Of a stretch of DNA of 11,174 nucleotides, positions 1 to 11,174 are shown in pieces. This DNA is from Salibacteraceae bacterium. Lineage in GTDB: Bacteria; Bacteroidota; Bacteroidia; Flavobacteriales_G; Salibacteraceae. Each line of letters opens with the position of its first letter. Position 1 is the first letter of the stretch. The stretch spans positions 1-11,174 of the forward strand of contig JALRDM010000116.1 in NCBI GenBank assembly GCA_023262195.1, written 5' to 3'. The notes under the pieces are model-generated. The model saw nothing but the letters and a program-made list of their open reading frames with translations, searched no databases and was not told the DNA's origin. A program made the translations under genes and the position numbers.

Positions 1-47
1 ATACACTTTTAATGTATGGGTCCAGGGTTCGAGCCCCTGTCGGGTCA
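1..47 (+). tRNA. tRNA-Lys(UUU), 3' part, 5' end outside the window
   Basis: This is the last two thirds of a lysine tRNA. Bases 1-5 (ATACA) pair perfectly with 13-17 (TGTAT) as the anticodon stem. The seven-base loop at 6-12 is CTTTTAA, so the anticodon at 8-10 is TTT (reads AAA/AAG). Bases 18-22 form a five-base variable loop. The T stem is CAGGG (23-27) with CCCTG (35-39) around the loop TTCGAGC. Bases 40-46 (TCGGGTC) are the 3' acceptor strand and A47 is the discriminator. CCA is not encoded (CTG follows), as is usual in Bacteroidota. The acceptor 5' strand, D arm and base 26 (about 26 bases) lie before the window. A terminator follows 9 bases later. The anticodon call is firm because stem, loop and T arm all fit. 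Confidence 0.93.
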
Positions 48-56
48 CTGAAATGC

Positions 57-90
57 AAAAAGCTGCTGGTTTTTACCAGCAGCTTTTTTT
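57..90 (+). terminator. Intrinsic terminator of the tRNA-Lys transcript
   Basis: A perfect 10-bp inverted repeat (61-70 with 75-84) encloses a TTTT loop and is followed by a run of seven T (84-90). Four A at 57-60 can extend the stem by pairing with 85-88. It sits 9 bases after the tRNA discriminator, where a tRNA transcript would be expected to end. Confidence 0.9.
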
Positions 91-153
91 ATTTCAATAA
101 TTCTTGGGCGAGAAGTTCATATCGAGCAAGAGAGGAACGAGTGAGTCGAAGTA

Positions 154-172
154 AGCCCCTGTCGGGCCACCA
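154..172 (+). repeat. Partial copy of a tRNA 3' end (tRNA remnant or attachment-site-like repeat)
   Basis: Bases 154-170 repeat bases 32-48 of the tRNA-Lys gene with one mismatch (16 of 17 identical). The copy covers the 3' strand of the T stem (CCCTG), the acceptor 3' strand (TCGGGCC) and an A at the discriminator position, here followed by CCA at 170-172. No cloverleaf can be built upstream: the CAGGG half of the T stem is missing and no GGCCCGA acceptor strand occurs at the right distance (around 95-105). It is therefore not a working tRNA gene. It could be the remnant of a second tRNA with its own terminator, or the direct repeat left by an element that once integrated at the tRNA 3' end. 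No integrase is present in the window. Confidence 0.6.
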
Positions 173-180
173 AATAAATA

Positions 181-209
181 TGCTTCACTGTAAGGTGAGG
201 CATTTTTTT
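181..209 (+). terminator. Intrinsic terminator after the tRNA 3'-end copy
   Basis: The 8-bp stem 181-188 (TGCTTCAC) pairs with 195-202 (GTGAGGCA) with one G-T wobble, encloses a six-base loop and is followed by seven T (203-209). It lies 8 bases after the CCA of the tRNA-like fragment, mirroring the tRNA-terminator arrangement at 1-90. It would isolate the following operon from upstream transcription. Confidence 0.75.
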
Positions 210-264
210 ATGGCCACATTTACCTTCCGATTGGATATATCAGAACAAGGAGGTCCATTTCTTA

Positions 265-339
265 ATGCAATGCAATTACAAAATATCAGAATCACCATCA
301 TTAACCCGCAGCCTTACTACATTTGAACTTGACATTTGA
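265..339 (+). CDS. Possible 24-codon leader ORF upstream of rfbG
   Basis: A short ORF begins with ATG at 265 and ends with TGA at 337-339, three bases before the ATG of rfbG. Ten bases before its start is AAGGAGGT (247-254), a full Shine-Dalgarno match, which is rare in Bacteroidota and is not seen before the other genes here. The peptide (starting MQCNYKISES and ending TFELDI) matches nothing I recognise and has no signal peptide or membrane segment. The placement would suit translational coupling to rfbG. The motif could also be chance, or the ORF could be the tail of a decayed gene, since the frame stays open back to about 199. Treat as a weak candidate. Confidence 0.2.
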   Translation: MQCNYKISESPSLTRSLTTFELDI

Positions 340-342
340 TTT

Positions 343-1422
343 ATGCCATCTACACTAAAGGAAACGTTTGCTGGTAAGCGTGTTTTTTTAACCGGTCACA
401 CAGGCTTTAAAGGAGCTTGGATGACCTTGATCTTGAATAAACTCGGAGCACAGGTGAAAGGGTATGCTCTTGAACCGAAAAATAATTTTGACCTATACAA
501 TCAGCTCGAAGGAAATAGCTTGTGTGACTCAGTTATTGCGGACATACGAGATAGACAAAAGCTTAAAGATGTAATCCTAGAATTTCAGCCAGATTTCGTG
601 TTTCATTTTGCAGCCCAAGCGCTTGTGTTGGACTCATATAAGGAACCAGTAGAAACTTACGAAACAAATGTGATGGGCACCATTCACGTTCTTGATGCTC
701 TTCGATCGTTAAATCAGCCCTGTTATTCTGTGATTATTACCACAGACAAGGTCTATGAGAATATGGAAGTACTCACACCTTACCCCGAAACAGCGCGTTT
801 TGGAGGATATGATCCATACAGTAATTCAAAGGCGTGTGCAGAATTGGCCATAAGTGCGTATAGAAATTCATTTCTCAATCCAAAAAATTACAAAGAGCAC
901 CTACAATCTGTCTCAGCGGCAAGAAGCGGTAACGTGATTGGCGGAGGTGATTGGAGTGAAAATCGGCTCGTTCCTGATATAGCAAGAGCTTTGATTGAAA
1001 ATAAACCAATTACGATCAGAAATCCTGAAGCCATTCGCCCATGGCAGCACGTCTTGGATCCACTAAATGGATATTTAACCTTGGCCCAGAAAATGGTTGA
1101 GGACCCCGTTGCTCAGGCGACTGGCTATAACTTTGGCCCAGAACCTAAGGATGAGCAAACGGTAATTGACATGGTGAGGCTGGCCATTGATTATTGGGGA
1201 GCTGGATCTTACGAAACTCCAACCATTCAAGACAAACCACACGAAGCTGGGCTCCTCAAATTAGCCATAGACAAAGCCAAATCAGAACTAAGTTGGAAAC
1301 CGCGGTTCGATTCATCGAAAGCAGTGGAATGGACCATGGATTGGTATAAAAACGGCCGAGCAAACGCCTTGGATTTCACCTCGAAACAGATCGACATTTT
1401 CTTTAGCGATGAGATCATTTAA
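343..1422 (+). CDS. rfbG: CDP-glucose 4,6-dehydratase
   Basis: This cytoplasmic NAD-dependent short-chain dehydrogenase/reductase (extended SDR) converts CDP-glucose to CDP-4-dehydro-6-deoxyglucose, the entry step to CDP-linked 6-deoxy and 3,6-dideoxy sugars. The 359 residues match the usual length. The N-terminal GKRVFLTGHTGFKG segment carries the Rossmann GxxGxxG (Gly18, 21, 24) and the GHTGFKG form typical of RfbG. TTDK at 133-136 places Asp135-Lys136 where the dTDP-glucose dehydratases have Asp-Glu, which supports the CDP-specific family. Tyr159-x3-Lys163 (YSNSK) is the catalytic pair. The substrate is assigned by family resemblance. In many genomes the cytidylyltransferase rfbF lies directly upstream; here only a tRNA region does, so CDP-glucose must come from a gene elsewhere. 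The ATG start gives a normal N-terminus. The gene overlaps the next by 14 bases and leads the operon. Confidence 0.93.
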   Translation: MPSTLKETFAGKRVFLTGHTGFKGAWMTLILNKLGAQVKGYALEPKNNFDLYNQLEGNSLCDSVIADIRDRQKLKDVILEFQPDFVFHFAAQALVLDSYKEPVETYETNVMGTIHVLDALRSLNQPCYSVIITTDKVYENMEVLTPYPETARFGGYDPYSNSKACAELAISAYRNSFLNPKNYKEHLQSVSAARSGNVIGGGDWSENRLVPDIARALIENKPITIRNPEAIRPWQHVLDPLNGYLTLAQKMVEDPVAQATGYNFGPEPKDEQTVIDMVRLAIDYWGAGSYETPTIQDKPHEAGLLKLAIDKAKSELSWKPRFDSSKAVEWTMDWYKNGRANALDFTSKQIDIFFSDEII

Positions 1423-1960
1423 GGAGCTCAATATACCTGGAGTGTTCGAAATTGACATGTTTCATGCAGGAGATGACCGTGGTATGCTTGTCAAACCATA
1501 TCACAAAAACACCCTAAACGAGCAAGGGCTCGTGAGTGAATTTCGTGAGAGCTTCTACTCTACCAATAAGAAAGGTGTAATCCGCGGAATGCACTTTCAG
1601 CATCCACCACATGATCACGCAAAGATTGTATACTGCACGCATGGTAGGCTCTTGGATGTAATTTTGGATATACGCGTAGGGAGCCCTACTTATGGAAAAG
1701 CAACCTGCATCGAGCTTAGTTCCGACAATTTTAAAGCCGCATATTTACCTATAGGTGTAGCCCACGGATTCTGTGTTCTCGAGGATGATACTACCATGAT
1801 TTACCTCACAAGTACCGTACACTCATCCACGGCAGATGATGGTTTGCTGTTCAATTCCTTTGATTTTGAATGGCCCATTAGCAATGGAATACATTCAGAA
1901 CGTGACCTTGAGTTCAAACCTTTGGCTGAATTTGACTCACCTTTCATCTATACCCCATGA
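1409..1960 (+). CDS. RmlC-family nucleotide-sugar epimerase (dTDP-4-dehydrorhamnose 3,5-epimerase-like)
   Basis: The 183 residues have the full cupin-type RmlC layout. They show the GDDRG turn (21-25), VIRGMHFQ with the catalytic-base position His62, Lys72 after the HPPHDHAK segment, DVILDIRVGSPTYGK (83-97), and YLPIGVAHGFCVLE with His119. HSERD (162-166) holds an Asp166 that probably pairs with His62, and WNS/WP-type residues follow. The family epimerises 4-keto-6-deoxy sugar nucleotides at C3 and/or C5. Next to rfbG the substrate is probably a CDP-4-keto-6-deoxy (or 3,6-dideoxy) hexose, as for AscE of the ascarylose pathway. By recalled alignment, the tyrosine general acid of RmlC is replaced here by His138 (STVHSS), which may change which carbons are epimerised. 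The start overlaps rfbG by 14 bases; the usual short lead-in to the PGVF motif fits it. The stop overlaps the next start as ATGA, suggesting coupled translation. Confidence 0.85.
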   Translation: MRSFKELNIPGVFEIDMFHAGDDRGMLVKPYHKNTLNEQGLVSEFRESFYSTNKKGVIRGMHFQHPPHDHAKIVYCTHGRLLDVILDIRVGSPTYGKATCIELSSDNFKAAYLPIGVAHGFCVLEDDTTMIYLTSTVHSSTADDGLLFNSFDFEWPISNGIHSERDLEFKPLAEFDSPFIYTP

Positions 1961-3099
1961 GACTTCTTTATACCCTGCTCCTTCTGCTGTATTTCCAATT
2001 TGGTTTCGGGCAAGAACCAACTCCAATTCTTTCCAACAAAGCCGAGATTTCGGTTTTAACGTGTAGTCCAGGGAATCAACTCTACTCTCTCTTCGGGCAC
2101 AGCGCCATACGCGTAACGGACCCGATAAACAAAATTGACGCTGTCTTCAATTATGGAACCTTCTCCTTCAACGAAGACTTCTATTTCAACTTTGCGATGG
2201 GTAGGCTAAACTATAAGCTTAGCGTATCGCCTATGAGCGGATTCATGCGCGAGTATCAGTATGAAAATCGCGGTGTCACGGAGCAAAGATTGGATCTTGA
2301 CTCTGCTCAAAAGCAAGACCTATTGAATTTTCTTGATTGGAATCGACAACCCGAGAACCGTATATATCTCTACGATTTTTTCTATAACAATTGCTCATCC
2401 ATAATTAGGGATGTTTTAGATACAGCATTAACTGCTGAGGTTTCCTATGAAGACTTAAGCTATGCCAGCAGTCCATCATATCGAAATATGATTGACAGTT
2501 ATTTGATTTATCATCCTTGGGGAGATTTCGGAATTGACCTTGGTCTCGGCACTCCGTGTGATAAAATCCCAAACGCTCAAGAGTATATGTTTTTGCCAGA
2601 TGAACTCGATCGTGCCTTTGACCATGCTCAGATTGAAGGACGACCAATTGTCAAAGAAAAGCGTACCCTTTTAACCACGGATGGCCTTACTTACACTTGG
2701 AGTCTCACCCAGCCTATTCCTTTGTTTTGGACATTGTTTGGAATCATCGCGGTGCTTTCAGCATGGGGACTAAGAAAAGGAAAGCGATTGGTGTTTTTAG
2801 ATGTAATCATCTTCCTTGCCTATGGAGCTGTTGGCGCGCTCCTCTTCTTTCTTTGGTTTATTACCATACACACCGCAACAGCCAATAACTTCAATATGCT
2901 CTGGGCATGGCCTATTCACATTTTGGCGATCCCTTTCCTCTGGATTGAACGGATTCGAAAACCTTATTTCATGGCATACGGAATCGTTCTGTTGTTGACC
3001 TTATTGAGTTTTCCTATACTCCCTCAAATGCTCCATATGGCTATTATTCCAATCGTTTTAATTGGATTGGTCCGTTCGTGGGTGAACTGGAAGTTATAG
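1957..3099 (+). CDS. DUF4105 / Lnb-type periplasmic domain membrane protein
   Basis: A 380-residue envelope protein. Residues 1-18 form a signal peptide (cleavage probably FG|QE). Residues about 28-200 form a DUF4105 domain with its hallmarks: CSPGNQLYSLFGHSAIR around His48, a VFNYGTF strand, and FFYNNCSS around Cys146. His and Cys are the likely catalytic pair. About five hydrophobic segments follow (roughly 254-273, 279-306, 315-332, 338-356, 359-376), anchoring it in the inner membrane. From memory, this domain has been renamed after Lnb, the lipoprotein N-acyltransferase of Bacteroides, so a role in acylating lipoproteins is plausible; whether this member does so is inference. It overlaps the epimerase by 4 bases (ATGA) and ends in two consecutive TAG codons directly before the next ATG. 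The next gene encodes a lipobox protein, which suits the suggested role. Confidence 0.82.
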   Translation: MRLLYTLLLLLYFQFGFGQEPTPILSNKAEISVLTCSPGNQLYSLFGHSAIRVTDPINKIDAVFNYGTFSFNEDFYFNFAMGRLNYKLSVSPMSGFMREYQYENRGVTEQRLDLDSAQKQDLLNFLDWNRQPENRIYLYDFFYNNCSSIIRDVLDTALTAEVSYEDLSYASSPSYRNMIDSYLIYHPWGDFGIDLGLGTPCDKIPNAQEYMFLPDELDRAFDHAQIEGRPIVKEKRTLLTTDGLTYTWSLTQPIPLFWTLFGIIAVLSAWGLRKGKRLVFLDVIIFLAYGAVGALLFFLWFITIHTATANNFNMLWAWPIHILAIPFLWIERIRKPYFMAYGIVLLLTLLSFPILPQMLHMAIIPIVLIGLVRSWVNWKL

Positions 3100-3102
3100 T
3101 AG

Positions 3103-4077
3103 ATGAGAAGCTTAACCCTTTTCTTGTTGTCCTTAGTCTTACTCCTCGCTTCATGCAGTCAATCATCAGACGTGGTGCAGCATGGACTTTGGCAAAAGCG
3201 AAAGTATCGCAAGGGTTGGCACGTTAATGATATCGCCAAGCATAAAGAACAGCAGAAAAAAGGCCTTGACCGAGGTCAATCCATCGGTCCGATAAATTTT
3301 TCGCAAACGCTCCAAGAATCAGATGAACCTGAAGTATACGATCATGGTACGAATCAGAGCATTGAAACAAAAAAACCAGACCCCAAGTTTGAGGTTGACT
3401 CCAGATTTCACCTTAAATCAAAACGGCATAGAACAACATCTAAAAAGTTTTTGAGCGTTAAAAATCACTCGCCTCCGGATGAAGACAAAGACAACAAGTC
3501 GAAGCGGTTAATTATAGCAAGTATCGGAAGCTTGGTTTCGCTTTTTGCTATGCTCATTACTCTTGTGTTGGGTTCAATCATAGGTGGGGCAGCTTTTTTA
3601 CCCAGTTTTATGGTCATACTATGGTTGGGGTTAACCATTTTGGCAATCATATACGCGATTGACTTATCTAGATCACAAAAGGGAAAACCTTATCTCACTG
3701 ATGAGCGATTGACGGACTTTGGTCTTAAATCAAAGCGACTTGCTATTTTATCAACCACCATTATACTGGGGGTTATCCTTTTAGCGGCCTTGGCTTTGGT
3801 TATTTTCTTTGTAATTGCCGCATCAGTTAATACTGGCAATATCGTTGGACTCATACTCCTTGGCATCGTGATACTATTCGTTTTGGCACTTATTGTTAGC
3901 CTAGCCACCATTGCATATATAGTATTGAGTAGCATCGGTCTCGCATTTGGAATTGCTTCGTATAAGCATAATCAGGAAGGAAAAAATGGTACGTGGATCA
4001 TCGTAGGTCAGTTAGCACTTCAGTTTCTCCTATTTATTGCGTCCATTCTCCTCGTCTTGATGAATGTGCTTATTTAA
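3103..4077 (+). CDS. Lipobox-bearing polytopic membrane protein, function unknown
   Basis: I do not recognise a named family. The first 18 residues are a lipoprotein signal peptide ending in the lipobox LASC, so Cys18 would be lipidated. Then comes WQKRKYRKGWHVN (30-42), a basic motif seen after the lipobox in many Bacteroidota hypothetical lipoproteins, and a charged, low-complexity stretch to about 133 with many Lys, Asp and Glu. The C-terminal part is strongly hydrophobic, with helices near 135-163, 166-187, 213-241, 246-283 (possibly two) and 296-323. A lipidated N-terminus on a multi-spanning protein implies an inner-membrane location with the 19-133 segment in the periplasm. The start lies right after the two amber stops of the preceding gene and in the same frame. 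It ends with two consecutive TAA codons. A 48-base gap then separates it from the next gene. Confidence 0.75.
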   Translation: MRSLTLFLLSLVLLLASCSQSSDVVQHGLWQKRKYRKGWHVNDIAKHKEQQKKGLDRGQSIGPINFSQTLQESDEPEVYDHGTNQSIETKKPDPKFEVDSRFHLKSKRHRTTSKKFLSVKNHSPPDEDKDNKSKRLIIASIGSLVSLFAMLITLVLGSIIGGAAFLPSFMVILWLGLTILAIIYAIDLSRSQKGKPYLTDERLTDFGLKSKRLAILSTTIILGVILLAALALVIFFVIAASVNTGNIVGLILLGIVILFVLALIVSLATIAYIVLSSIGLAFGIASYKHNQEGKNGTWIIVGQLALQFLLFIASILLVLMNVLI

Positions 4078-4125
4078 TAAGATATTTTATCGTTCCATTC
4101 CATATGATGCCTGTAAACTTGCAGC

Positions 4126-5016
4126 ATGAAGACACTCATTCTCGGTGCATCTGGATTGGTTGGGGGCAATTGCTTAAAATGGTTCAATGAACAAGGCTGG
4201 GAATGTTTAGGAACTCATTTCTCCTTCGAAACACCTGCCACTGAGTTTTACAATACTTTGGATCATACTGACACAAGCAATGTGGATGTCGATGCTTTTG
4301 CTCCTGAGATAATCATACACTGTGGTGCACTCACCTGGGTAGATTACTGCGAAGAAAATCCAGAGGAAAGTTTTGAAAAAACGGTGGTCTCAACGCACAA
4401 TGCTGTTGCGCTTGCTCAAAAGCATAATGCTAAACTGGTTTATCTCAGTACTGATTATGTTTTTGATGGCGAAAAAGGATTTTACTCAGAAGAAGACCAG
4501 ACTAACCCTTTAGGTGTTTATGCCAAACATAAGCTCGAGGCTGAAGAACATATTTCAGCTCAGCTTTCTGACTTTCTCATTTGCAGAATTACCAACGTTT
4601 ATGGTGATGAAATCAGAGGCAAAAACTTCATTGCGAGGCTCAGTGCAAACATGGTAAAAGGCGATGCCATGGATCTGAAGCTGCCCATTGATCAATACGC
4701 TACACCTGTGAATGCAATCGATGTGGCCCGTGCAATCTATCTGCTTTTAGACGCACAGAAAAAAGGGATATACCATTTCGCAAGTACAGATTACCTCAAT
4801 AGAGTGCAATTGGCAGAGCGCGTATTTCAATATTTCGGTCACGAACAAGTCAAAATTTCGTCTGTTACTACACATGATTTGAAGCAAGCTGCAAAAAGAC
4901 CATTGAATGGAGGAATGAGCGCAGCAAAATTCAATTCAGAATTTCCGCATTTTCGCTGGACAAATGTGGATGACTATTTAAGCGAATTACAACATAGATT
5001 ACAGGATAAAGAATGA
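4126..5016 (+). CDS. RmlD-family NAD(P)-dependent sugar-nucleotide reductase (dTDP-4-dehydrorhamnose reductase-like)
   Basis: A 296-residue extended SDR of the RmlD type, which reduces the 4-keto group of a 6-deoxy sugar nucleotide in the cytoplasm. Visible features are the Rossmann motif LGASGLVGG (Gly7, 10, 13), IIIHCGALTWVDYCEENPE (62-80) equivalent to the AAYTxVDxAE segment of RmlD, the strongly conserved STDYVFDG (108-115), and the catalytic Tyr132-x3-Lys136. Length agrees with RmlD (about 290-300). No rmlA or rmlB is present, while a CDP-glucose dehydratase and a 3-dehydratase are, so it probably makes the last step to a CDP-(di)deoxyhexose rather than dTDP-rhamnose. It may start a second transcription unit after the 48-base gap. 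Its stop overlaps the next start by 4 bases (ATGA). The substrate is inferred; the family is clear. Confidence 0.87.
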   Translation: MKTLILGASGLVGGNCLKWFNEQGWECLGTHFSFETPATEFYNTLDHTDTSNVDVDAFAPEIIIHCGALTWVDYCEENPEESFEKTVVSTHNAVALAQKHNAKLVYLSTDYVFDGEKGFYSEEDQTNPLGVYAKHKLEAEEHISAQLSDFLICRITNVYGDEIRGKNFIARLSANMVKGDAMDLKLPIDQYATPVNAIDVARAIYLLLDAQKKGIYHFASTDYLNRVQLAERVFQYFGHEQVKISSVTTHDLKQAAKRPLNGGMSAAKFNSEFPHFRWTNVDDYLSELQHRLQDKE

Positions 5017-6221
5017 ACGAAACCAAGGAAATGATAAGGGTGCCATATGGCATGACGGTGCATGGTGAAGAGGAAATAGAGGCCGTAGTAAATGTGCTAC
5101 GCACTTCTACCCAAATGGGGAAAAACGTGCGCGAAATGGAAGACCGTATTGCCAAACTTTTTGATAAGCCGTATGGTATTATGCTCAACAGTGGGTCATC
5201 AGCCAACTATTTGGGTGTAGAAGTGATGAATCTCGAAAAAGGCAGCGAAGTCATTACCCCTGCACTTACCTTCTCAACTACCGTTGCACCATTGGTGCGC
5301 AATGGCTTAATCCCATCGTTCGTAGATGTGGAAGAAGGCACCTATAACCTTGACGCGGATAAAGTGGAGGAAATGATTACCTCTAAAACCAAGGCCATGA
5401 TGGTTCCAAACCTCATCGGAAACATGCCTGATTGGGAAAAGCTTAGAGCGATAGCAGACAAGCATAATTTAATCGTCTTTGAAGACTCAGCCGACACCCT
5501 TGGTGGTACCATCAATGCTAAAAGCACCGGATCCTTTTCTGATATGAGTATTACCAGTTTCTATGGGTCACACGTGATCAATTGTGCAGGCAATGGTGGT
5601 ATGTTAATCGTTCGTGAGTCAGAACACTTTGAACACGCAAAACTGTTGCGATCATGGGGGCGATCATCTTCACTCTTCGTAGAATCTGAAGCTATTGAGA
5701 ACCGCTTCAATGTAGAAGTTGACGGCATCCCATATGATTCCAAATTCATTTTTGCCGAGCCAGGGTACAACCTAGAGCCGTCAGAAATGGGTGCTGCATT
5801 TGGGCTGGTTCAGCTCAGCAAACTCGATCATAACATCAGCGAGCGAGAGAAGAACTTCGCTGAAATGACTGAGTTTTTCGAGCAATGGGAAAAGTGGTTC
5901 ATTTTACCCAAGCAACTTCCTAACAGCCGCACAGGTTGGTTAGCGTTCGCCCTGACCATTAGAGATGACGCGCCATTTAAGCGACCTGAAATGCAGATTT
6001 TCTTGGAAAAACGTAATATTCAAACACGAACAGTTTTTACGGGAAATATTTTAAGACAACCTGGATTTAAGAACGTGGAGAGTAAAAAGTCGAGCGATGG
6101 ATACACCGAATCTGATAAAGTGATGCGCGGTGGTATGCTTCTCGCCTGCCACCATGGACTTACTCGACCTATGATTGATCACGTAAAAGAGCAAGTCACC
6201 AATTTCCTAAGTCAGTATTAA
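5013..6221 (+). CDS. DegT/DnrJ/EryC1/StrS-fold sugar 3-dehydratase (RfbH/ColD-like), without Fe-S cysteines
   Basis: A 402-residue fold-type I PLP/PMP enzyme. The cofactor phosphate loop NSGSSANYL is at 59-67, and FEDSADTLGG places Asp158 opposite the pyridine nitrogen. SFYGSH (182-187) carries His187 where aminotransferases have the Schiff-base lysine. That Lys-to-His change defines the 3-dehydratases RfbH/E1 and ColD, which remove the C3 hydroxyl of a 4-keto-6-deoxy sugar nucleotide. Classical RfbH also binds a [2Fe-2S] cluster through four cysteines after WGR. Here that position reads WGRSSSLF (215-222), and the protein has only two cysteines (191 and 379), so a cluster of that type is excluded. 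His187 lies close to its position in ColD as I recall it (His188). With rfbG in the operon, the substrate is probably CDP-4-keto-6-deoxyglucose and the product a CDP-3,6-dideoxy-4-ketohexose. The substrate is inferred; fold and His replacement are seen. Confidence 0.86.
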   Translation: MNETKEMIRVPYGMTVHGEEEIEAVVNVLRTSTQMGKNVREMEDRIAKLFDKPYGIMLNSGSSANYLGVEVMNLEKGSEVITPALTFSTTVAPLVRNGLIPSFVDVEEGTYNLDADKVEEMITSKTKAMMVPNLIGNMPDWEKLRAIADKHNLIVFEDSADTLGGTINAKSTGSFSDMSITSFYGSHVINCAGNGGMLIVRESEHFEHAKLLRSWGRSSSLFVESEAIENRFNVEVDGIPYDSKFIFAEPGYNLEPSEMGAAFGLVQLSKLDHNISEREKNFAEMTEFFEQWEKWFILPKQLPNSRTGWLAFALTIRDDAPFKRPEMQIFLEKRNIQTRTVFTGNILRQPGFKNVESKKSSDGYTESDKVMRGGMLLACHHGLTRPMIDHVKEQVTNFLSQY

Positions 6222-6246
6222 ACTTGAAGTGAATTCAAGCCGACTT

Positions 6247-9132
6247 ATGGGACCTATAAAAAGGAATCCACTCTTACTGTTAACCACCATCTTATGGGTA
6301 GTAATAACGGTGTTCATTGAGCCTGGCAGGTACTCTAAGTCTGAACTGCCTAAACATTCTCTGTCGGTAGATAGTGTTGCAGGCTATGAACGAGGGAATG
6401 GTAAGAGTCATTTTGAAGAGCTTCACGAAAATTTTTTCATCACTTATCCTGGCAAGAAAGCCCCTGTCATTGCTTACTTGTCCTTTGATGAATCTATAGA
6501 TATCCTACTGCGGGGAGGTGTAGTATCTTGGGCTGAAACAGAAGACACTACACGTTCAAGAATCGATTATCATATCGCATTGAACGACAGTTTGCTATAT
6601 CGCCAAGCCTCAGTTACTCAACCCTTTCGCGAAGTATTTCATGTTGATTCCGGAGATTTGATGTCGATTACCATTGATAAAGGAGATGAATGGTATTACG
6701 ATGAAGGATACTTCGAAATAAAACACCACCATCCTTGGTTGCCCTTAATCGTTATTGTTTGTACGCTACTCGCATCTTTAGTGCTCAGTCTGACGATATT
6801 ACGAGCTCCACTCAGCCTCCCGATGGTACTTCTTGCTATTTTCTTATTCTACTTTGATGAGGTGAGCATAGTAAGAGCGTATCACTTGCACATATCATTA
6901 ATATGGGCCTTGTCATTGATAATGGGCATCACGGTGTTACGTTTAATTTATTTTAAGCGAACAACAATTAACTTATTAAAAAACAGCGGTTTAGCTACAC
7001 TTCTTTTCTTGTTGTTTTTAATTCCGCTGCTTAACATGATGAACTTTCTCCGGTTTGATAAAGGACTCGCTCAATATGACTACTACGCTATATTTCAGAC
7101 CAATTGGACAGAAGCTTTTCAATACGCAACTACTAATTCAAATTACGCAGTAACAAGCCTTACCGCTTATGTGCTTTTGGCATTGGTGCTTTACCTATTC
7201 GACCTCTCTCACAAACGGATAACAGTATCGCCAAAACTGCGACTCGCATTACTATTAGCAGCATTGATTGGTATGATATCGTTTCCAGTTTCAACAAGTA
7301 TCTCCGATGCAGCAATAGCATTCTCGACATATCGAAGTGAGTTGGCTGGTTTCATTGCATTACAAGATTCGCTCACCCAAAAAAGTACAACACTAGGCGC
7401 TACCACCAATGCCCAAAACGAATTGCACATAGTCGTCATTGGAGAGTCACACAATAAACACCACATGTCTCTCTATGGCTATCATAGAAACACCACCCCT
7501 CGCCTCGATGCTTTGGCTAAGCAGGGCGAAATCATTGTGATGGATGAGGCCATTGCTCATCACACTCATACCCATCCCGTATTAGAGCTTTCGCTATCCT
7601 CGGCTAATTTGTACAACCAGCGTAGATTGAAAAACAGCTATACTATCATTAACGTACTCAATGCAGCTGATTATAAAACCACTTGGTTGAGTAACCAAAT
7701 AAAGATTGGCGCATGGGATAACCACGTTTCATTGATCGCGATGGGGTGCGATAGTGAGTACTTCTTAAATAAGAACATTGGCACAACGTTCACCTCGATG
7801 AGCTATGACGAAATAGTCTTGAACAATTTAAAATCGATCATTGAAAAAGAGGATGCCAGAAACCATGTAATATTCATTCATATCATGGGGAGTCATGGCA
7901 ACTATGGCGACCGATGGCCCGAGAATCGAGAGAAATTTCAAAACCCAACCAAAGGTCAGTTTGGCAACTTCAACACTTGGATTGTTGATGATTATGACAA
8001 CAGCATTTACTACAACGATTCTATCCTCACAGAGATCATCGCAGTCCTTAACAAGGCACCACAATCAAAAAAGAGTTTGGTATACTTTGCCGACCACAGC
8101 GAAGAAGTATCTCGAGGTGATGGTCACAGCATGGCGCTATTTGATTATGAAATGACCGAAATCCCAATGTTCTGGTGGTTTAGTGAAGGTTACAAGCAGA
8201 CCTACCCACAGCGTGTAGAGCACCTTAATCAGAATAAGTTCAAGGTATTCACCAACGATTTAATCTATGATCAAGTTGCTGAAATTGCTAGTATTGATGG
8301 AGCGGAGAGTGAAGCTCGCCTTAATCTGTTTAACCCAGCTTATGCGCTACCGATGGAGAATATAAAATTGGTTGATCAAAGCCACCCCTATGGTGCTGAT
8401 ATGAATGTTTATTACATAGAGCGCGTCAACAATGATTCGCTGCACAAAGGCTGGCAACAAAAACTGGGGGTTCACCGAGCAAACACCATCGGCAAACTTC
8501 ATCATGCCACCAATAGACTTGGTTTCAAACAAGTAGAACTCGATGTGGTCTTTCATTCGGATTCCGTCATTTGGTTTGAAATCGGACATGGAGAGCGAGA
8601 GTCGATGACAGCCATGGATTTGAGAACTTACTTGGCAGACCCACAATGTGCCAATATTGATCGCTTCTGGTTGGATGTAAAGAATATAAATGACAACAAT
8701 ATTGATGACTTATTAGCGCATCTTGGAGACAGTTTATTCCAACAATTTAAAGCGAAGTTGATTATTGAGAGCTCCACCAAATCTTCGCGATTCAAAGAAA
8801 TCAACGGGCTTGGCTTCTACACCTCATATTACTTGCCAACTGCAATTGCGGAAGTATCAGATGACCGACAGCTTAGAACTTGGGCCGAAGAAATTTCTGC
8901 TCAAATAAAGTTACAGCGTGTGAGCGCAGTTTCTTTTGACGCAGCCTTATATCCTCGGGTTAAACAATATTTAGAGCCCCGTATTAACGCTGAAATCGAA
9001 TACCTTTCGTGGCAATTAGACCTGAGTATGAGTCAACCCGGTTTGTCCGAAAAGCTTAATTCCAGCTCCGTGGCAAATGACCAACGAGTGAAAATGTTAC
9101 TGATAAAACTCCAATCTAAATTTGATTACTAA
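6247..9132 (+). CDS. EptA/CptA-like phosphoethanolamine transferase fused to a GDPD-like C-terminal domain
   Basis: A 961-residue inner-membrane protein, almost twice the family's usual 500-580. One TM helix (about 8-25) is followed by a roughly 135-residue probably beta-rich extracytoplasmic loop, then about six TM helices up to residue 350. The catalytic alkaline-phosphatase-fold domain (about 390-690) shows VVIGESHNKHHMSLYGYHR with nucleophile position Ser401, HIMGSH (545-550), ADHSEE with Asp616-His617, and GDGH with His627. The family transfers phosphoethanolamine from phosphatidylethanolamine to lipid A, core sugars or proteins. Residues about 735-900 resemble a glycerophosphodiesterase/PI-PLC-like barrel: HRANT (His743, Arg744), VELDV (Glu764, Asp766), GHGE (His781), LDVK and IIES. 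I chose the ATG at 6247, which leaves a short charged tail before the first TM; a GTG at 6229 in the same frame is the alternative (967 residues). The stop overlaps the next start by one base. Confidence 0.82.
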   Translation: MGPIKRNPLLLLTTILWVVITVFIEPGRYSKSELPKHSLSVDSVAGYERGNGKSHFEELHENFFITYPGKKAPVIAYLSFDESIDILLRGGVVSWAETEDTTRSRIDYHIALNDSLLYRQASVTQPFREVFHVDSGDLMSITIDKGDEWYYDEGYFEIKHHHPWLPLIVIVCTLLASLVLSLTILRAPLSLPMVLLAIFLFYFDEVSIVRAYHLHISLIWALSLIMGITVLRLIYFKRTTINLLKNSGLATLLFLLFLIPLLNMMNFLRFDKGLAQYDYYAIFQTNWTEAFQYATTNSNYAVTSLTAYVLLALVLYLFDLSHKRITVSPKLRLALLLAALIGMISFPVSTSISDAAIAFSTYRSELAGFIALQDSLTQKSTTLGATTNAQNELHIVVIGESHNKHHMSLYGYHRNTTPRLDALAKQGEIIVMDEAIAHHTHTHPVLELSLSSANLYNQRRLKNSYTIINVLNAADYKTTWLSNQIKIGAWDNHVSLIAMGCDSEYFLNKNIGTTFTSMSYDEIVLNNLKSIIEKEDARNHVIFIHIMGSHGNYGDRWPENREKFQNPTKGQFGNFNTWIVDDYDNSIYYNDSILTEIIAVLNKAPQSKKSLVYFADHSEEVSRGDGHSMALFDYEMTEIPMFWWFSEGYKQTYPQRVEHLNQNKFKVFTNDLIYDQVAEIASIDGAESEARLNLFNPAYALPMENIKLVDQSHPYGADMNVYYIERVNNDSLHKGWQQKLGVHRANTIGKLHHATNRLGFKQVELDVVFHSDSVIWFEIGHGERESMTAMDLRTYLADPQCANIDRFWLDVKNINDNNIDDLLAHLGDSLFQQFKAKLIIESSTKSSRFKEINGLGFYTSYYLPTAIAEVSDDRQLRTWAEEISAQIKLQRVSAVSFDAALYPRVKQYLEPRINAEIEYLSWQLDLSMSQPGLSEKLNSSSVANDQRVKMLLIKLQSKFDY

Positions 9133-9680
9133 TGAGAACTCTCTCCTTACTCCTAGTGTGCAGCTTTGCACTTATGCAAACCAGCTGCGGCCAAAAATCA
9201 GATCGAAAAAGCCCGCCAGCAAAGGCTGAAATTTCAATGGGTGATTTCGAGGCGTCCATCAACTACGGACAACCAAGTAAAAACGGAAGACTAATTTTCG
9301 GTACGAAAGAAGCTGATGCTCTTGTTCCATATGGATAGCCATGGCGCACGGGAGCCAATGAAGCGACTGAAATCACACTTTCAAAATCGGTCACTATAGC
9401 AGGAAATACGCTTGATGCTGGAACATATTCGATCTATACAATTCCCGGAGAAAACGAATGGGTGATCGCTTTCAATAGTGAAACCGATTTTTGGGGAAGA
9501 TCCTTGTTTGGTAGTCCATACAAGGAAGAAAAAGATGTTTTTCGAATCAACGTCACCCCAAAAACATCCGAAAGTGTGACAGAAGCATTCATAATTTCAA
9601 TGAAGGAGGTATCCGAAACTTCTGTAAGTGTAACGATGGCTTGGGATCAAACCAGCGTAGCCTTTGACATGATGTTCTAG
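9132..9680 (+). pseudogene. DUF2911 lipoprotein gene interrupted by an in-frame amber codon
   Basis: One continuous frame encodes a 182-residue DUF2911 protein except for a TAG at 9336-9338 (codon 69). Before it are a signal peptide with a lipoprotein-like TSC (Cys19), the INYGQPSKNGRLIFG segment and LVPYG. After it, in the same frame, come PWRTGANEATEITLSK, GNTLDAGTYSIYTIPG and WVIAFN, followed by the family's C-terminal strands, ending in TAG at 9678. As I recall, the family consensus reads VPYGKVWRTGANEAT, so the stop sits where Lys is expected; AAG to TAG is one substitution. No frameshift is involved. It is either a recent nonsense pseudogene, a sequencing error or a recoded site. The 68-residue product would lose nearly the whole domain. 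The function of DUF2911 is unknown; intact members are exported or lipid-anchored. It is the last gene of the + strand run. Confidence 0.85.
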
Positions 9681-11092
9681 GGATTCGGCTCAAGTTCTCC
9701 TTCGCTGCTCGCTACGATGGTAGAAACCGAAGCGTCACCCGTAACGTTAACCACGGTCCTACACATATCTAAGATTCGATCAACAGGAAAGATCAGGGCG
9801 ATCCAAGCTGGATTTAAGCCTACCGACTCCAAGACAATAATCATGAGTACGAGGCCAGCGCTCGGTACAGCAGCCGCACCAATAGAAGCAAGCGTAGCAG
9901 TAATAATGATGGTGAGTTGTTGCATCAAACTCAAATCCACCATGTGAAACTGCGCTAGTGCCACCACGGCCACCGCTTGATATAAGCTGGTACCATCCAT
10001 ATTCACTGTGGCACCTATGGGCAATACGAAACTGGTTGTTCGTTCGCTCACGCCCAAATTCTTGTTTACTGCGTTCATCGTAACTGGCAGTGTTGCTACG
10101 GAAGAGCTTGTAGAAAAAGCAGTGATTTGAGCGTCTCTAATCCCAGAAAGAAACTTGCGATAATTCATTGACTTTACCAATGCCGATACAACCAGTGGAT
10201 AGAAAATAAAAACCATAATCACCAGCCCAAGCACCACTACGAGAGAATACCTCCACAAAAAGTCTAGCAACTCAAAAAATCGGTCTGGATCGGTCCCTGC
10301 AGCCTTCACAATCTGGCCCGCCATAAGCGCAAAAACGAAAATGGGCATGGCTTTCATAACTACCCAAATCATTCGAACGAACACCTCATTGAATCCATCC
10401 ACCAGCTTAATGACAGGTTCTGCCTTTTCAGGATCGATCATCACTAAAATGAGGCCGAAAAAAATCGCAAAGAAGATGATTTGTAGCATGGATGTGTCTG
10501 CCAGAGCCTGAAAGATATTGGTGGGCACCACGTCAACTACAGGTTTCAACGGACCGAAGTCTTTTTGATTCTGCTTCTCACGTTTTGCCTTTTCAATCTT
10601 ATCCGAAACCCATTCATTAGACTCTTGCTTTTGTCCTTTCAACTCTGCAACCAGTACCTGGTTTTTTTCATCACAACCAATGCAGATATTGTCAAGTTTC
10701 ATAACGCCATTAGCATCACGCCAAAGTTCATACCCAATGCGGTTGCGTTCGCGAATGTTGTCTGCTTGTGCATTTCCTGGAGCAAAGGCATTCACCAAGG
10801 CAAGACCGATGGTTACTGAAATCATGGTGGTCACCAAGTACAGTCCCAAGGTCTTCAAACCCATCTTACCCAGCTTATTGATGTCTTTAAGCGAGGTTAC
10901 TCCAAGTATTACTGAAAACAATACCATAGGCACGGCAATCAGCTTTAACACATTGATGAAAATGTCACCCAGAGGTTTGATGTAATAGGTGGTGAACTGA
11001 TTCCAACCGAAGCTAATGCTCAACCACGCATACAACGCTCCAAGGATGATTCCTGCGATGACTTGCCAATGAAGTGGGATTTTTCTGAGCAT
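9677..11092 (-). CDS. Dicarboxylate/amino acid:cation symporter (DAACS, GltP/DctA family)
   Basis: A 471-residue inner-membrane secondary transporter that takes up glutamate/aspartate or C4-dicarboxylates with Na+ or H+. The re-entrant hairpin 1 serine motif STSSSVATLP (327-336), NMDGTSLYQ (364-372) in TM7, hairpin 2 around AAAVPSAG (406-413), and TM8 LDMCRTVVNVTGD with Asp442, Arg445, Asn449 and Asp453 are all present. Arg445 matches the GltPh arginine that binds an acidic side chain, so an acidic substrate is likely. Between TM3 and TM4 is a hydrophilic insert of about 80 residues (107-188) with charged residues and a CIGC pair (Cys137, Cys140), which should face the periplasm. The start (MLRKIPLHWQ) gives the expected short N-terminal helix. 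It converges on the DUF2911 gene, overlapping by three bases at the stop codons, and is divergent from the partial gene at 11145. Confidence 0.94.
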   Translation of the reverse strand: MLRKIPLHWQVIAGIILGALYAWLSISFGWNQFTTYYIKPLGDIFINVLKLIAVPMVLFSVILGVTSLKDINKLGKMGLKTLGLYLVTTMISVTIGLALVNAFAPGNAQADNIRERNRIGYELWRDANGVMKLDNICIGCDEKNQVLVAELKGQKQESNEWVSDKIEKAKREKQNQKDFGPLKPVVDVVPTNIFQALADTSMLQIIFFAIFFGLILVMIDPEKAEPVIKLVDGFNEVFVRMIWVVMKAMPIFVFALMAGQIVKAAGTDPDRFFELLDFLWRYSLVVVLGLVIMVFIFYPLVVSALVKSMNYRKFLSGIRDAQITAFSTSSSVATLPVTMNAVNKNLGVSERTTSFVLPIGATVNMDGTSLYQAVAVVALAQFHMVDLSLMQQLTIIITATLASIGAAAVPSAGLVLMIIVLESVGLNPAWIALIFPVDRILDMCRTVVNVTGDASVSTIVASSEGELEPNP

Positions 11093-11144
11093 AATGGAAC
11101 TTTCGGATATTTAGGTGTCGGGTAAAGTATGTCTAGAAAACACC

Positions 11145-11174
11145 ATGGCAAAAAAGGAGAAAAAGACCACACCG
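11145..11174 (+). CDS. Start of a divergent gene, cut by the window end
   Basis: An ATG at 11145 opens a frame that runs uninterrupted to the last base, giving ten residues (MAKKEKKTTP). A lysine-rich start of this kind is common for cytoplasmic proteins. The position, 52 bases from the divergent symporter start, suits a real gene. Nothing more can be said about the product. Confidence 0.4.
   Translation, partial: MAKKEKKTTP

Follow-up and report, generated by a model that had tools for sequence, protein, structure and literature searches.

The transferase domain of phosphoethanolamine (PEtN) transferases lies outside the cytoplasm, and these enzymes alter the charge on the Gram-negative cell surface and the way the bacteria interact with antibiotics and immune factors. 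Families of this type (CptA, EptA, OpgB/LtaS) move small phospho-alcohols off phospholipids. The subject of the present analysis is a gene of a Salibacteraceae bacterium that encodes such a transferase fused to a C-terminal barrel resembling glycerophosphodiester phosphodiesterases (GDPDs). It lies on contig JALRDM010000116.1 (assembly GCA_023262195.1), positions 1 to 11,174 of the forward strand, and this whole stretch of 11,174 nt is hereafter called the window. Menorin/FAM151 proteins have been placed in the GDPD/phospholipase C (PLC)-like superfamily, and Fam151b is required for mouse photoreceptors (PMC6965129). In Shewanella vesiculosa HM13, the gene cluster for the vesicle cargo P49 includes a GDPD-like protein, HM3345, beside an OpgE-like PEtN transferase, HM3344 (PMC6971210), and disrupting putative surface glycolipid genes, including that for a lipooligosaccharide PEtN transferase, causes P49 to dissociate from vesicles and cells (PMC7281004). 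The available sections of PMC12096838 and PMC10434233 contain nothing on a barrel-transferase pair. The fused form was not found among the paper titles listed, where coverage of the subscription literature is limited, so its absence from print is not established.

The fusion protein has two domains with intact signature residues, and its barrel is paired repeatedly with head-group-type transferases elsewhere. A tentative reading, somewhat short of probable, is that the protein is a bifunctional enzyme, with the transferase adding PEtN and the barrel then processing that phosphodiester on a surface glycan or lipid. It would be an inner-membrane enzyme facing the periplasm. Judging from its EptC fold and residue match, the first half would transfer PEtN from phospholipid to a glycan or lipid of the cell surface. 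The menorin-like second half, a barrel of the GDPD fold, would cleave or exchange the small alcohol on the transferase product, and the end surface group would differ from plain PEtN. We infer that the barrel is catalytic, uses a divalent metal and takes the transferase product as substrate, and that the acceptor is part of the dideoxysugar-containing glycan which the neighbouring genes suggest.

Domain organization of the fusion protein

The gene starts 7 bases past the stop codon of an RfbH-like gene; an alternative ATG start at 6247 would give 961 amino acids (aa). Its features, in the 967-aa numbering used throughout, are as follows.

6229..9132, + strand: fusion gene, 967 aa from GTG, a single open frame (open reading frame call)
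6262..6330, + strand: first hydrophobic segment, probable first transmembrane segment (TM1), residues 12-34 (Kyte-Doolittle)
6361..6726, + strand: beta-rich segment in the TM1-TM2 interval, residues 45-166
6727..7281, + strand: other hydrophobic segments, residues 167-351 (hydropathy; low-confidence helices in the model)
7369..8415, + strand: PEtN transferase domain, residues 381-729
8416..8454, + strand: linker ahead of the barrel, residues 730-742, between the matched domain ranges
8455..9126, + strand: GDPD/menorin-like triosephosphate isomerase (TIM) barrel, residues 743-966 (model and structural matches)
8473..8478, + strand: His749-Arg750, the HR motif (sequence, alignment)
8536..8544, + strand: Glu770-x-Asp772, the ExD motif, metal site by analogy, aligned to GDPD
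8587..8589, + strand: His787, second catalytic His by analogy, aligned to GDPD
8674..8685, + strand: Asp816-x-Lys818-Asn819, the WLDxKN signature (alignment)
8767..8769, + strand: Glu847 of IIES (alignment)

The sequence-only reading had taken the first half for a complete EptA/CptA-type domain, and the profile search agrees: PF00884 matches residues 401-667 (E 1.1e-39), the sole Pfam match of the protein, and this catalytic domain has the EptA-family fold, as in EptC/CptA-type enzymes. Residues E406, T448, H556, D622, H623 and H633, which we take to be the catalytic Thr and the metal ligands Glu, His, Asp-His and His, are invariant in 14 fused proteins (alignment A6) and align with the same residues of EcEptC. 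The top NCBIfam matches of this half are CptA models, both under their cut-offs (184.8 of 404 and 155.2 of 900 bits; NF007933, NF012179), and since 184.8 bits falls short of 404 the protein is not CptA by NCBI's rule. The beta-rich segment (about 120 residues) is common to the longer fused relatives, is missing from two others (L013, L014; L numbers denote loci) and is mostly gaps in the alignment of L042, L045, L049 and L052.

Fold and conservation of the barrel

Five motifs had been read in the C-terminal extension, and all are present (HRANT from residue 749, VELDV from 769, GHGE from 786, LDVK from 815 and IIES from 845) and conserved in an alignment of 42 copies. The individual residues named were real but numbered six too low (His743, Arg744, Glu764, Asp766 and His781 for 749, 750, 770, 772 and 787), as if counted from the ATG at 6247. 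The barrel reaches beyond the proposed extent of 8440-8960, to about 8455-9126. In all 42 copies, the window's included, E770, D772, W814, D816, K818 and N819 are invariant, while position 749 is His in 36, 750 is Arg in 31, 787 is His in 38 and 847 is Glu in 38.

The predicted structure of the C-terminal part is a barrel with a predicted local distance difference test (pLDDT) score of 94.7, and its best structural matches are bacterial GDPDs, including those of T. thermophilus (1vd6) and T. tengcongensis (2pz0), which supports the GDPD/PI-PLC-like assignment first made from the motifs. Neither a different fold nor scattered residues were seen: as in the GDPD/PLC-like superfamily, the TIM barrel carries H(R), ExD and a second His at its active-site end, a clustering assessed from strand position rather than distance, and the alignment with GDPDs covers ExD and the second His, not HR.

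In profile searches the window's copy matches neither PF03009 nor the Menorin family PF10223. Among 41 barrel copies, 19 match PF10223 at E up to 0.1 (best 4.2e-8), and two exceed its cut-off of 25 bits (L103, 30.4 bits; L047, 29.6 bits). By these matches menorin/FAM151 is the nearest Pfam family of the barrel, though the window's own copy has none. Ordinary GDPD was dropped as a family label, since PF03009 is matched by only one of the 41 copies (E 0.011) and not by the window. A search for PF10223 in 100 relatives gave no hits, and as the same search detected none of 14 controls it is uninformative. Against PDB sequences, the barrel profile had as its top match the phospholipase D 9yd8 (E 0.0015), with sicariid phospholipases D and one GDPD at E 0.6-3.7 only. 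The L047 copy belongs to a 1471-residue protein of Methyloprofundus sp. (L047:2269-6681) with sulfatase, weak MG2-like and menorin-like parts.

Recurrence and pairing with transferases

A single-sequence search with the C-terminal part matched 8 of 199 relatives, own genome included, with E down to 2.4e-48 elsewhere. There were 14 matches in 395 genomes of the class and 8 in 395 of the phylum (5 of them weak and partial), and a scan of named genomes gave 32 barrel loci; plasmid and phage records held no match to the window's barrel. Second copies (L037-L040 of L009-L012, L054 of L013, L065 of L077, L069 of L043) and partial matches (L078, E 5.4e-4; L082-L086, E 2.2e-6 to 3.5e-4) were excluded, leaving 43 loci, 42 of them in alignment A4 plus L103. 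Near-copies remain among these (L070/L071, 94% identical; L067/L068, 97%).

The two-domain architecture proved to be recurrent. Eighteen of the 43 barrels are fused behind a PF00884-type domain, a share that is no population estimate because alignments A2 and A3 were drawn mostly from fused proteins; another 20 adjoin a PF00884-type gene, three of them in divergent orientation (L057, L062, L077), and five have neither within the stretch seen (L056, L063, L066, L067, L068). By record titles the fused copies fall in Bacteroidota, Pseudomonadota, Ignavibacteriota and Bdellovibrionota, and include Shewanella surugensis DSM 17177 and Teredinibacter sp. ISS155. L046, truncated at its 5' end, was scored as fused from part of the transferase domain. 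Beside L053, which was omitted from alignment A5 for its unread bases, a frame of 138 residues that matches no Pfam family is followed by a frame with PF00884; these are probably one interrupted gene and were scored as adjacent. The L056 barrel (Bacteroides sp., L056:5935-6672) has the signature residues, but the stretch seen contains no transferase.

At several loci only our own CptA-type profile, built from alignment A1, and not Pfam, recognised the transferase; this profile in turn missed the more distant PF00884 proteins of L015, L048, L053, L060, L062 and L077. Next to 16 ordinary GDPD loci it detected no transferase, but with these omissions and flanks of at most 1.5 kb the control says little. 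When 10 partners were compared with NCBIfam, five were nearest to CptA (L058, L070, L072, L075, L076), while general PEtN transferase models came closest for two (L055, L064) and models for phosphoglycerol transferase or LtaS for another two (L048, L077); the L015 partner had no model within E 1e-8 and is PF00884 by Pfam. The partners examined are CptA-, EptA- or OpgB/LtaS-like. The fusion gene is the sole PF00884 match of its own genome (79% complete), where PF03009 was not found, and 13 genomes held 11 PF00884 matches (3 below cut-off), counts that cover these genomes and not those of the adjacent loci.

A tree of the 43 barrels requires three changes of the fused label, at least two of them forced by well-supported branches. 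L048 and L053 are unfused within a well-supported fused clade (100/99), while L013 and L014 are fused inside an otherwise unfused part, with modest support (90/87). Taken with the partner types, the tree indicates that pairing outlasted shifts in both fusion state and partner. All 25 unfused barrels carry a hydrophobic segment at the N terminus (best 19-residue score 1.44-2.75, below 1.6 in 6 of the 25) and no hydrophobic score above 1.3 past residue 80, which makes anchoring outside the cytoplasm probable. The co-occurrence of the two parts, fused or neighbouring, in several phyla suggests a common surface group as their target.

Glycan gene neighbourhood

Upstream of the fusion gene the plus strand carries, in order, genes for CDP-glucose 4,6-dehydratase (CDP, cytidine diphosphate), an RmlC-like epimerase, an Lnb-like protein, a membrane protein, an RmlD-like reductase and an RfbH-like dehydrase; a dicarboxylate symporter gene lies on the opposite strand.

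343-1422, + strand: CDP-glucose 4,6-dehydratase gene (TIGR02622, 460.4 bits, above cut-off)
1957-3099, + strand: Lnb-like lipoprotein N-acyltransferase gene, inside the nucleotide-sugar gene run
3103-4077, + strand: membrane protein gene of no convincing family, inside the same run

The dehydratase, RmlC-, RmlD- and RfbH-like genes (343-6221) suggest that a surface glycan is supplied through a CDP-dideoxyhexose route. Counterparts of the Lnb-like and membrane protein genes occur in both L009 and L010. A tie between the fusion and dideoxyhexose synthesis was considered and rejected: the RfbH-like gene is present in 11 of 12 same-genus relatives (E up to 1e-100) and the barrel in 3 of the 12, so the fusion is not required by the pathway. 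In L009-L011 the fused gene has the RfbH-like gene on one side and a response-regulator gene on the other. After their RfbH-like gene, L123-L125 have a response-regulator gene that looks similar by eye, and no fused gene separates the two. When the window is compared with L009-L011, identity is 38-42% in the two catalytic domains of the fused protein and 86-87% in the RfbH-like protein, which indicates that the fused gene is fast-diverging or has been exchanged.

Proposed function and alternatives

Several observations weigh against a bifunctional enzyme. Activity has been shown for none of the barrel copies, and menorin/FAM151 has no known substrate (PMC6965129). The C-terminal 277 residues match no Pfam or NCBIfam model at E up to 1, four of 41 copies match the phosphatidylinositol 4-kinase accessory domain (best E 1.1e-4; taken for chance), and the PDB profile matches next to the top one are unrelated (beta-glucanase, E 0.033; nuclear matrix protein, 0.093). 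The full-length model, with a pLDDT of only 75.4, makes the relative placement of the two active sites impossible. Lys replaces the first His in L062 and L077, both paired, and in the four proteobacterial, unpaired copies (L063, L066, L067, L068) HR has become YG, the second His Arg and the Glu Val; that branch is probably inactive, and by these substitutions the residue losses in all six speak against a uniform catalytic role. There is also a transferase relative that lacks the barrel (G058, 29% identical). Some flavobacteria carry many PF00884 genes, which would weaken the argument against chance pairing without removing it. Lastly, HM3345 and HM3344 are separate genes with no fusion (PMC6971210), and HM3345 is a candidate member of the barrel family.

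The constancy of the barrel beside varied transferases of one chemical kind argues for a shared substrate, a small-alcohol phosphodiester on either the product or the donor lipid. The same pairing would also fit an eraser, in which the barrel takes off the PEtN that the transferase has added and so sets the level of modification, and enzymes of the GDPD fold do hydrolyse small-alcohol phosphodiesters; fusion or tight pairing would, however, leave little separate control and produce a futile cycle, making this unlikely. As pure removal would be futile in a fused enzyme, processing of the product is favoured. It is rather unlikely that the barrel serves the donor side, acting like phospholipase D-like members on the phospholipid donor or on lysophospholipid, tuning donor supply or clearing a by-product. 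We consider it improbable that the barrel is a non-catalytic module binding phosphodiester or glycan and positioning the acceptor: L062 and L077 do retain a paired transferase without the first His, and the lack of a known menorin/FAM151 substrate (PMC6965129) is in keeping with this, but the presence of E770, D772, D816 and K818 in 42 of 42 copies, of H749 in 36 and of H787 in 38 seems beyond the needs of binding. The assembly behind the window is indeed fragmented (420 contigs, 79% complete), and yet unrelated activities joined by chance or assembly error are hardly credible, being contradicted by 17 further fused loci and 20 adjacent pairs; this recurrence of fusion and pairing led us to rule out chance or artefact.

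Within the bifunctional reading, a distinctly improbable variant is that the transferase places PEtN (or phosphoglycerol with other partners) on a surface glycan and the barrel then removes the alcohol, so that a phosphate monoester remains, or hands the phosphate over to a second group. If true, this would be an ATP-free periplasmic phosphorylation of surface sugars with phospholipid as the phosphate source. It would be formally analogous to the way the mannose-6-phosphate tag is made in two steps.

Comparison with known systems

Relative to EptC/CptA (PF00884; NF007933, NF012179), the fusion protein adds a C-terminal barrel and a beta-rich segment after TM1. If the barrel is a partner phosphodiesterase, the group added by PEtN transferases would not always be the end product. 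HM3345 and HM3344 share with the window's protein a GDPD-like component, predicted to be in the inner membrane, next to a PEtN transferase (PMC6971210). With bacterial GDPDs (PF03009) the barrel has in common the TIM barrel and the ExD and His motifs; it differs in the WLDxKN signature, where most GDPDs compared have some ExK form, and its sequence is too distant for Pfam. While the menorin/FAM151 family (PF10223) is widespread in animals (PMC6965129), the bacterial copies are paired with head-group transferases. Menorin/FAM151 can be set beside relatives in bacteria, and the neighbouring genes of these point towards a class of substrates that can be tested, the small-alcohol phosphodiesters derived from phospholipid head groups.
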